A DNA stretch of 64,000 bases from Calycina herbarum (lineage: Eukaryota; Ascomycota; Leotiomycetes; Helotiales; Pezizellaceae): positions 372,001-436,000 of the forward strand of contig LLEY01000028.1 of NCBI GenBank assembly GCA_001414485.1, given 5' to 3'. This document shows, in pieces, positions 43,853-48,563 of this stretch (position 1 is its first letter; each line of letters begins with the position of its first letter). The notes beneath the pieces are model-generated. The model saw nothing but the letters and a program-made list of their open reading frames with translations, ran no database searches and was not told where the DNA came from. Position numbers and translations under genes: made by a program.

Positions 43853-44210
43853 GGCTATTTCCGAAAAAAATATCTCCGAGCAAGTATCTTCGAGTATATT
43901 TTTCCAAGCATCTATTCCCGAGCATCTATTTCCGAGCCATTAAGTTTTCTCCGAGCCAACTATCTCCGAGTAAATATCTCCGAGACTCTATTCCAAGATG
44001 ATATTTCCGAGCAAATATCTCCGAAAGAACCGAGGGAATATTTCCGAGCTACTCTCGGACTCGGACGTAGTCTCGGTTTCGGAATAGTCTCGGAAATACT
44101 CCTCTCTGTTATTATGTCTGGGCTTGTCTCTCGGATTTAATTATCTCGGATTTATCTCGGAGCACTTAGGAACAAACGAAGAAGACTGAAATAGTCTCTG
44201 AAGTCTCGGA
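43853..44210. repeat. TCCGAG array followed by inverted CTCGGA array
   Basis: From about 43853 to 44048 the hexamer TCCGAG and one-base variants recur at least ten times at intervals of roughly 13-17 bp, mostly in the context TATCTCCGAG or TATTTCCGAG. From about 44052 to 44210 the reverse complement CTCGGA recurs eight times. The two halves therefore form an imperfect long inverted repeat built of short tandem units. Confidence 0.85.
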
Positions 44211-44269
44211 GTACTGGGAATAATATCAGACAACTCGGATAGATGTTTTTGAGAAGTCGATAAACCTGA

Positions 44270-45397: not shown

Positions 45398-48300
45398 TCA
45401 AGCTAAAACCTCCGAGGCATCATGCCAGACCTCACCCGAACTGTCTTCCGCCGGACTACTCAATATAGCACCGATACTCCCCATCCGCTTGATCCTCTGC
45501 GATGAGCTGGTGGGAGTGATGGGGTCACTGGAGGCGCCACTTGCAGGTGGTGTCGGCAGGGACTCCTCTGTTGGCTCCATGGATTGAATGACCGTACCCC
45601 TCCCTTCATTCACACCAGACCAAGCACTTGGCGTCTGTTCAGAATTTGAAGTCATCGCAAGGCGACGTGATGATCGTGTGCTATAAGCATGGGTCGGAGG
45701 CTTGAAAACAGGAGGCGGTGGTAGTTCACTTCGTGCCGGCGGTAATTCATCTTGAATAGACGGGAGTGATACTCCGGAGGGTGGATGCGTTAGCAAGTTC
45801 ATACCCTTGATATCCCAACCCCCAAGGTTGGGAATGTGATTAGAAGTTGAATAGAATGCGTAACGATTGGCATTGGTGTTGAGGTTTCGTTTGAAGATCT
45901 CGAGAGCTTCTTTTGGGGGCATTTTGGGCATGGTAGGTATTAAGACCCGAAGCTTTTTCCACTGCGCCATAACATCTGCCACATGAGTGACGTCTTTCTC
46001 TCGCTGTTCATTTTCGCCCTCGTCGTGATCTGCGTCCCGGCGCCCCTCAACCTGCTTGCCTTTTGCGTTTGTGGTTTTGGGTCTGGTTGGTTTGCTGGGC
46101 ATTGACTGTCTTTTCTTGCCCCGTGGAGCCGCACCCACCGCTAAAGAAGTCACCGCTGACATCGACTTGGTTTTCCTTTTGGGAGCAGGAAGGTTTTTCT
46201 TGACTTCTATTGTGGTTTTAGTCAGCGGCAGAGGGTTTTCGATATGTGGTTCTTTATTCGCGGCAAGAGATGACCGGAATTTATTTGTCGCGAATTTATC
46301 TGGATGTGATGGTCGAGGTGCAATGTTTCCATCCCCATCGGGGAACATTCTCAGCGCATCCAGTATCTTGAAGGTGACCCATGCACCATTCGTTTTGTCG
46401 TCCCTCATACATTGAGGTCGAGCCCGTGGTTTCGTTTCGCCGAGTGACTCTCTCGGGTTTCGTGTGTCTAGTGACTGTCGTTTCTTCGGCTCTTCAATCG
46501 TGCCCTGAGGTGACCAGATGTCCTCCCTCCTCTGTTTTAGATCCAGCACCCAAGCATCACAGTCCCATTCAACCCAATAATCAATGACATCTCCCCAAGT
46601 GCTTTCAGGTGGCTTTGTCCTATTCACAAACACCACAGTTCCTCCTCTACTATGTACGGCTTTGGCGAATTCCTTGACCATGATTTTTAGACCATGTACC
46701 TTTAAGCTGGTCCCCATGATCAGTAAGACGTCGGGCCCAAGCCCGATGTCGTGTGTTATAAGCGGCCCAACTAGGTTTGCATGGGGGTGCTCCTCCCCAT
46801 AAAGAACAATATCAGGTCTCAATCGACCAACAGCTAACTCTCGTCTGCCTCTTCCGGTACGGTGGGCATTATATTCAGTGCAGGACGGACAATCGGGGGC
46901 CTGTCCAGACAATGTTGCAGATTCTCGGTCTGCCTCGCTCCAACTTGATATTTTGCCGCAAAGTCCGCACCTGAGGTCAACCAAACTCCCGTGGAGGAGC
47001 ACAACTTCAACTCCTCCGTTGTGAGCAGACTGCTCGTCGATAGTCTCGGGTCTGGGTTCTCGCTGTGTTCTCGAGTGAAACCGCGCGCGATGACCTGGCC
47101 CACGTGTGAGGTTCGTACATAGCCCCAGGCGTTCTTCCAGGCAATCGATGTTTTGTGTGTAATTCCTGACAAGACGCCCTCCGTCACGCAGGGTTCTGAT
47201 GAAGTTGTGCGTTTCTGTCGTCGTCGTAACTTCATTTTGGATTTTTTGTCGTAATGAAGAAATGAACATGTAGAAAATGGAAGTTGTGAATGGATCTTGC
47301 CAAACCATTGAATCAAAAAGATCTCGTCCCTTCAAATTTGGAAGACTTCGTGAGGATGTTTGTGAGGATTGTGTCGATGGTTCCTCGTCTGATGGCGAGC
47401 TCATGAAGCTCGAGGCTTCTTTCTGTAGGGTTTGTCGGCGTTTATGTGGTAACACGGAGGGCTGTGAGGATTGAGTCGATAATTCCTCATCTGATGGCGA
47501 GCTCATGAAACTTGATGCTTCTCTCTGTAGGGTCTGTCGGCGTTTATGTGGCAAGACGGTACGACTTTCCTCGCTGGGAGCACTATTGAGGTCTGACGTC
47601 GTGGAGTTGGCGGGGAAGGATGTATTAATCTCGCGTTTAGGAGACCTCATAAAGAATGACGTCCCAGCGTCAGTCCCAGAGTCGACCAAACTTGGGGAAT
47701 TACGATCTGAGGTGAATGGGCCCATTGAGCTGCGCATCGATCTTCGTGTTGGTTTGGGCTCGCATGCTGGTTTGCTCTGCGCTTGAACTTCAGTCTCTTC
47801 TCCTCCGCACTCCAAATGGCTCAATACGCAAGCTGAACATGGAGTATTTGAATCGCATTTCACTTTGCGCCTTCTGCAATTCTGGCAAGCTGTCACTGCC
47901 CGTTTTCGTTTCGGCTGTCTTGGTTTGGTGTCTGATGTCGGTAGTTTCAGAGGTTTTGGCTGTGGACTACTATTTAACATCGACACGTCTTGTTGTACGA
48001 AGGGGGAATCATTCTCCCCTGCCGAGCTGCCAACTGATGAGGCTGATTGCACAGATCGGTAATGCGAGGAAATATAGAAGTCAGATAGATCGAGTGACGG
48101 TGTCGTTGATCGAGTGCTGAGTGGGCTGCTGGGAGGCAGTAGATTTGATAATGGCGGTCCATCACCATCATTTGATGATGATTGTGATGATGGCTTTTCC
48201 TCCTCGTCAATCACTGCTACAACATTTCCATCTGGAGCCACGACCTCGTAGAAGTATGATGGTCTTTTCCTTTTCCTTGGTCTGTCGTCGATATCGAAAG

Positions 48301-48563
48301 TATTTGTATGTTCCCAAGGCGGGTTCTCGAGAGATTTGTCGTATTGGGCTTGGATCAAGGAATACAGGCCATTTTCAGATCGGAAATCCTACATTTGTTA
48401 ATACCATTCATTCGCGGATCTGGGGTGCGCGACTCACTGGTATGCCACAATTGGTACTTATACCAGCACCTGTAACTACAATGACCCTCTTCGACCTTCC
48501 TAAAGCATCTGCAACGCATTGCAATTCCAGGCTTGAGCCCGGTTTGACGTTGATCGTCGGCAT
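45398..48563 (-). CDS. Hst3/Hst4-like sirtuin with an embedded Zn(II)2Cys6 cluster
   Basis: Two minus-strand exons: 48438-48563 (42 codons) and 45398-48388; GTGAGT donor, TGTAG acceptor, phase 0; 1038 residues. NAD-binding motif VTGAGISTNCGIPDFRSENG at residues 30-49. The catalytic fold resumes near residue 394 with LKGRDLFDSMVW, HNFIRTLRDGGRLVRNYTQN, NIDCLEERLGL, the catalytic His508 in LLHGSL, zinc pairs CGLC and CPSC, RPDIVLYGEEHP and IMGTSLKVHGLK. This form matches class I sirtuins related to yeast Hst3/Hst4, which deacetylate histone H3 Lys56. Between the two parts lie about 335 residues. They contain PKRKRAV and a canonical C6 zinc cluster, Cys210 to Cys236, spaced x2, x6, x5, x2, x6, and a 34-residue duplication. 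A long disordered C-terminus with basic patches follows. Nuclear action is inferred. Confidence 0.9.
47807..47887 (-). other. Zn2Cys6 cluster inside the sirtuin
   Basis: The cluster reads ACQNCRRRKVKCD then TPCSACVLSHLEC. All six cysteines have canonical spacing and the DNA-contact basic loop RRRKVK is intact. It lies in frame within a single uninterrupted 2991-bp exon, so it is not an artefact of joining two genes by splicing. Confidence 0.93.

Follow-up and report, generated by a model that had tools for sequence, protein, structure and literature searches.

The sirtuin gene on the minus strand of the window (the whole 64,000-nt stretch of DNA analysed here, to whose positions all coordinates refer) lies at 45398-48563 and encodes a spliced product of 1038 residues, in which a canonical Zn2Cys6 cluster is located within the sirtuin catalytic domain. 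On balance we slightly favour the reading that this protein is an H3K56-type deacetylase with a DNA anchor of its own, captured from a transcription factor; site-specific targeting would be the weaker half of that proposal. A deacetylase able to read DNA sequence by itself would be the natural counterpart of engineered fusions of the type 'DNA-binding domain plus chromatin enzyme'.

Gene structure and sirtuin domain

The first exon (48438..48563 (-), residues 1-42) carries the GAGIS NAD-binding motif at 48456-48470. Its translation is MPTINV...TGAGISTNCGIP; after the intron the protein continues with DFRSENGLYSLIQAQYDKS. The intron (48389..48437 (-)) comprises 49 nt, GTGAGT...TAG; the unspliced frame has stops and the spliced protein reads GIPDFRS, matching the homologues. 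The second exon (45398..48388 (-)) encodes residues 43-1038 plus the stop in a single open frame, whose 996 codons span DFRS, the cluster, LFDS, NIDCLE and HGS with no internal stop. The earlier note had placed all of this, GAGIS included, in one uninterrupted exon. That description stands from DFRS to the stop and fails for GAGIS, which the 49-nt intron splits from DFRS. The product length it gave, 1038 residues, is correct for the spliced sirtuin.

A Pfam run on the 986 residues that start at the first TTG of frame 45398-48388 gave SIR2 at 72.1 bits (cut-off 24). The domains over cut-off in residues 53-1038 are SIR2 and Zn_clus, and the fungal_trans middle homology domain was not found over cut-off in these residues. 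Together with GAGIS, DFRS, QNID, the catalytic histidine and the four zinc-binding cysteines, all of which are present, the SIR2 score places the protein in the Sir2/sirtuin family. The second half of the domain begins at NLKGRDLFDS (47309..47338 (-)) and contains the NAD-binding/catalytic motif TQNIDCLE (47135..47158 (-)), LLHGS with the catalytic histidine (46985..46999 (-), whose His and Gly do not vary in alignments A1 and A2) and the four-cysteine zinc site native to the sirtuin, CGLC ... CPSC (46880..46969 (-)). In alignments of 16 and 52 homologues the motif positions are mostly invariant or nearly so, and the sirtuin core looks intact.

Homologues were collected in two protein searches with 847 and 343 matches, of which the best 120 each were listed, giving 130 different proteins including that of the window; the profile of the second search was built from cluster-bearing proteins and favours cluster bearers. 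The putative Hst3 assignment, which agrees with the Hst3/Hst4 type proposed by the earlier note, is taken from the source names of the homologues, which read HST3 or hst3 for P0012, P0046, P0056, P0074, P0077 and P0089. NCBIfam returned sub-threshold models only, nearly all of bacterial-type deacetylases. The catalytic motifs are as in Hst3/Hst4 and in Aspergillus HstD. The genome has one match to PF08214 (E 8.9e-90), the HAT_KAT11 model, which we take to represent the Rtt109 family of acetyltransferases, and an H3K56 acetylation pathway is therefore plausibly present. In Aspergillus terreus, H3K56 acetylation rises on loss of HstD, according to PMC10454297. The window protein is probably an Hst3-type, H3K56-directed, NAD-dependent histone deacetylase. 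Near its C-terminus lies a motif, RIKRMGSIGAILSSP (window 45452-45496), that was matched as a regular expression in 29 of the 130 homologues.

The zinc cluster and its host loop

The cluster, CQNCRRRKVKCDSNTPCSACVLSHLEC (residues 210-236; 47807..47887 (-)), scores 38.2 bits with Pfam Zn_clus PF00172 (E 1.5e-9, cut-off 21) and has the canonical spacing C-x2-C-x6-C-x5-C-x2-C-x6-C. It is preceded by a basic patch, KRKR (residues 202-205; 47900..47911 (-)). This agrees with the claim that a canonical C6 cluster follows a basic patch inside the sirtuin catalytic domain. A chance pattern of cysteines was rejected, as none of 200,000 shuffles of residues 51-396 gave the Zn2Cys6 spacing and the Pfam score is over cut-off. 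In the PDB the cluster has weak sequence matches to Put3, Cyp1/Hap1 and Gal4 (best E 0.00095). A single-sequence AlphaFold model of 77 residues was poor (mean pLDDT 69.2) and the expected fold was not seen in it.

The host of the cluster is a long Ser-rich insert (residues 52-392; 47339..48361 (-)) that extends from DFRSENGLY to NLKGRDLFDS and flanks the cluster with about 155 loop residues on each side. A long insert and a tail are also found in other Leotiomycete-type homologues, and the loop stretches of the homologues inspected are likewise rich in Ser. The stretch from DFRS to LFD measures 61 to 539 residues in the 57 of the 130 listed proteins that have both landmarks, which indicates that this loop is by nature expandable and bears out the suggestion that the insertion site tolerates extra sequence. 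The yeast Sir2 chain 2hjh_A has 19 residues between the first two stretches matched by a short homologue (P0114).

Two further features of the loop may be mentioned. At window 47360-47557 there is an in-frame tandem duplication, VLPHKRRQTLQ(R/K)EASSFMSSPSDEE..., present by eye in two copies in the window protein (P0001) and P0002 and in one copy in the Hymenoscyphus fraxineus protein P0003. At 48218-48325 a block NPPWE..NTFDIDDRP.KRKRPSYFYEVVAPDGNVV is well conserved in the nearest homologues, both with and without the cluster, and its exact core KRKRPSYF occurs in 7 of the 130 listed proteins. A second KRKR (residues 81-84) falls within the block shared with the cluster-free H. fraxineus protein; nuclear import is therefore probably not the role of the cluster.

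Removal of the cluster as an intron was also considered. None of the stronger consensus donor forms considered was present within 300 nt upstream of the cluster or inside it, and under that rule there was no frame-preserving candidate. When any GTR...AG of 45-400 nt was allowed, 52 frame-preserving combinations over the cluster were obtained, from seven donor hexamers that were all judged weak, which makes cryptic splicing of the cluster out of the sirtuin mRNA unlikely. The third-position GC content of the cluster stretch is 0.40, versus 0.42-0.49 in the remaining gene. Beyond the 3' end of the gene (window 44000-44240) many TCTCGGA/TTTCCGAG-like words were noticed by eye.

Source, distribution and origin of the cluster

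In the 68.8-Mb genome to which the window belongs (379 contigs), a 301-bp DNA query over the cluster, in a search that skips very common words, gave two matches, itself and a stretch of contig C348; a repeat or mobile element was rejected on the same result. Over 111 bp (47785..47895 (-)) the sirtuin gene has 82% gap-free DNA identity to C348:70822-70932, for which reason its cluster looks captured. At the protein level, residues 198-244 (47783..47923 (-)) are homologous to the linker and Zn2Cys6 exon of a factor encoded there (E 1.5e-14, the next factor following at 1.4e-7). The match includes the linker, which reads PGQP in the C348 factor, PRQP in the window protein and SGQP in P0002, and ends near EETGV/EETEV; CRRRKVKCDSN is identical in the window cluster and the factor. 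The matching stretch is exon 2 of a short gene and scores 38.8 bits with Zn_clus. In exon 1, zf-H2C2_2 (35.2, cut-off 40) and zf-C2H2 (23.7, cut-off 25.2) both stay sub-threshold, and by eye an intron splits the second C2H2-type finger. Further factor exons were not seen by eye in the downstream ORFs of at least 90 codons on C348, and the gene may be that of a truncated factor. It lies at L023:4537-5103 (contig C348, about 70536-71102) and is flanked by an AT-rich stretch of 22-31% GC (L023 1-3500); no effector domain was recognised in it by eye.

The C2H2 plus Zn cluster combination is the most frequent dual type among 191 fungal TFomes, being found in 140 genomes (73%), as stated in PMC5415576, and because of this frequency we read the direction as from factor to sirtuin. 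These 'dual-specificity' factors (PMC5415576) form the likely source family, since the C348 gene has the fingers, the short linker and the matching exon. The window cluster differs from them in lacking C2H2 fingers and in belonging to an enzyme. It thus looks copied from a C2H2+Zn2Cys6 factor, the C348 gene being either this donor or its sister, and would represent a transcription-factor domain transferred as a segment of about 47 codons to the flexible loop of an Hst3-type catalytic domain. The C348 gene directly predicts the candidate DNA sites. When 75 residues round the cluster were used as a protein query, the query alone was returned and P0002 too was missed, so that this search is uninformative on donors outside the genome.

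A complete cluster is present in 18 of the 130 listed proteins, in the loop of 16 and in the C-terminal tail of two. A loop cluster could be visible in 101 of the 130, which have at least 100 residues before LFD; the other 29 are not judgeable. The loop architecture thus also occurs, among the matches listed, in proteins predicted elsewhere. The 16 are the window protein, its relative P0002 (79% identical) and 14 Sclerotiniaceae-type proteins, the latter from 13 species of Botrytis/Botryotinia, Sclerotinia, Monilinia, Stromatinia and Ciborinia, all in the family Sclerotiniaceae, plus one relative of these. The predicted protein P0003 of H. fraxineus, the nearest neighbour of the window pair, is without the whole segment, and so are P0056 (Rutstroemia) and P0046 (Clarireedia), which group with the 14 in the tree. 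Conservation across homologues, which the earlier note had left to be checked, is therefore partial: the cluster is complete in the loop of 16 of the 130 listed proteins and absent from the nearest neighbour. Homologues without the cysteines, which the note would have taken as a sign of a chance cluster, do exist in P0003, yet all 14 Sclerotiniaceae-type proteins keep all six. This retention and the DNA-level relative in a factor of the same genome argue for acquisition rather than chance. As far as the predicted proteins go, the loop cluster is lineage-specific.

The two tail clusters, in P0105 (residue 585) and P0125 (residue 540), are complete and have different residues and flanks; Pfam agrees on the former and a precomputed label on the latter. 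P0105 has an apparent translated intron before DFRS and was probably read from unspliced DNA. The tails of P0068 (Coleophoma, residues 832-923) and P0089 (Phlyctema, 993-1078) each contain two separate basic C-x2-C-x6-C half-motifs, which might represent a split or decayed zinc cluster.

How often the cluster was gained was addressed with a quick tree computed on the catalytic half that follows the loop, with 102 of the 120 first-search proteins (18 without a clear LFD start were dropped). On this tree the loop-cluster trait needs two changes, forced by starred branches, and the separation of the two groups suggests two captures. In a tree of 85 rows, from which 17 more were dropped for starts too near or long branches, one clade of all cluster bearers was rejected by the AU test (p-AU 8e-5, for a group named after seeing the data). 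A single ancestral acquisition followed by many losses seems an improbable account of the origin. It agrees with the location of the cluster in the same loop in both groups, and in a domain tree of 46 clusters, based on 44 columns only, one clade for both sirtuin groups was not firmly rejected (p-AU 0.08). However, it would require 12 losses when the 85-row tree is rooted at its midpoint, the two groups are distinguished by a C3-C4 spacing of x5 versus x6, and their nearest factors differ. The domain tree joins the C348 factor to the window pair (support 89, not starred) and the factors L036 (C46:256226) and L044 to the Sclerotiniaceae-type clusters (support 87, not starred). When the Sclerotinia cluster was searched against the window's genome, the window sirtuin was absent from the 9 matches at E up to 0.001. 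In L036 the cluster is followed by a stretch that resembles a coiled coil by eye.

These trees thus suggest, without proving it, that the domain was captured twice at one site and not once; this enzyme gained it at least once and apparently on further occasions. It is a tentative extension, and one we would not bet on, that helotialean Hst3 repeatedly captured Zn2Cys6 domains (twice in the loop, up to two in the tail) and that this gave rise to self-targeting deacetylases that act at the donor's sites on a chosen regulon.

Constraint and possible function

All six cysteines are kept in 14 of 14 Sclerotiniaceae-type members, in which 13 of 28 cluster columns are invariant versus 86 of 398 columns of the remaining insert (Fisher p 0.005); of 343 equally wide windows placed elsewhere in this insert, 62 match the cluster in invariance. 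A comparison of the window protein with P0002 shows no higher conservation of the cluster than of its flanks (20/27 identical versus 175/241). Relative to the C348 copy the window cluster has dN 0.17 and dS 0.54 over 37 codons. By Gal4 numbering, Lys18 is kept in 18 of the 18 complete clusters among the matches listed and Arg15 in 17 of 18, positions that we presume to be the DNA contacts. The claim that this is a real GAL4-type cluster is supported, and these standard DNA-reading residues are retained, Lys18 in all 18. The retention of the cysteines and of Lys18/Arg15 speaks for a retained cluster function, with the stronger case in the Sclerotiniaceae-type proteins and the weaker one in the window pair.

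The conservation data bear on the view that the cluster is a neutral passenger, i.e. an in-frame domain duplication that landed in a tolerant loop and has persisted there so far. The variable loop length (61 to 539 residues), the equal conservation of cluster and flanks in the window pair and the lack of the cluster in the predicted H. fraxineus protein all fit this view. It is nevertheless improbable, given that all six cysteines persist in the 14 Sclerotiniaceae-type proteins, that two other homologues carry tail clusters and that dN/dS against the C348 copy is about 0.3, a value that constraint on the C348 branch alone could explain.

The DNA-reading residues likewise bear on the idea that the cluster serves protein-protein contact, zinc or redox sensing or auto-regulation of the sirtuin instead of DNA binding. 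Zinc clusters without DNA contacts exist, and insertion within the catalytic domain could couple cluster and core. Nonetheless, Lys18 and Arg15 are kept, the cluster is set apart from the sirtuin core by a long linker on either side, which lowers the likelihood of tight coupling, and nothing observed favours a sensor, so that we rate this idea as very improbable.

Given its basic residues and its homology to the domains of factors, the cluster would by default be expected to contact DNA. In the favoured reading, a DNA-anchored deacetylase, the Zn2Cys6 domain would have been copied from a C2H2+Zn2Cys6 factor, the long loop would let the cluster reach DNA and the sirtuin core would still fold and deacetylate nearby nucleosomes. 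The cluster would bind DNA, perhaps at single CGG-type half-sites, and by chromatin tethering deacetylation would be targeted locally and not globally. A crude heptad count gave 3 of 8 for a coiled coil after the window cluster, compared with 5 of 8 for the Gal4 yardstick and 5 and 6 for the tail clusters. With no clear coiled coil by this count, half-site binding or, alternatively, pairing through the sirtuin or partners would be expected, and specificity may be modest.

The same crude count agrees with the possibility that the cluster is a weak, non-specific tether to DNA or chromatin that aids the genome-wide work of Hst3 without selecting loci. RSC3 and CBF3 subunit B, which belong to large chromatin machines, have zinc clusters as well, and total H3K56 acetylation goes up on loss of HstD in A. 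terreus (PMC10454297). We consider a general tether rather doubtful, since the standard DNA-reading residues are kept, with Lys18 in 18 of 18 clusters.

As a rule, histone deacetylases reach DNA through other proteins that recruit them. Rsc3 and CBF3 subunit B bring a zinc cluster into chromatin work, as is proposed here for the window sirtuin, and so does Ume6, which recruits Rpd3. In these systems the cluster resides in a separate subunit or recruiter, whereas in the window protein it is located in the deacetylase itself. The cluster within the catalytic domain also distinguishes the window protein from Hst3/Hst4 and HstD, and to our knowledge no Hst3/Hst4-type sirtuin has been described with a DNA-binding domain. 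Titles and abstract starts in the open-licence literature yielded no account of a sirtuin that bears a Zn2Cys6 domain. The architecture is already visible in public databases, as UniRef labels several of the Sclerotiniaceae-type homologues 'Zn(2)-C6 fungal-type domain-containing protein'.
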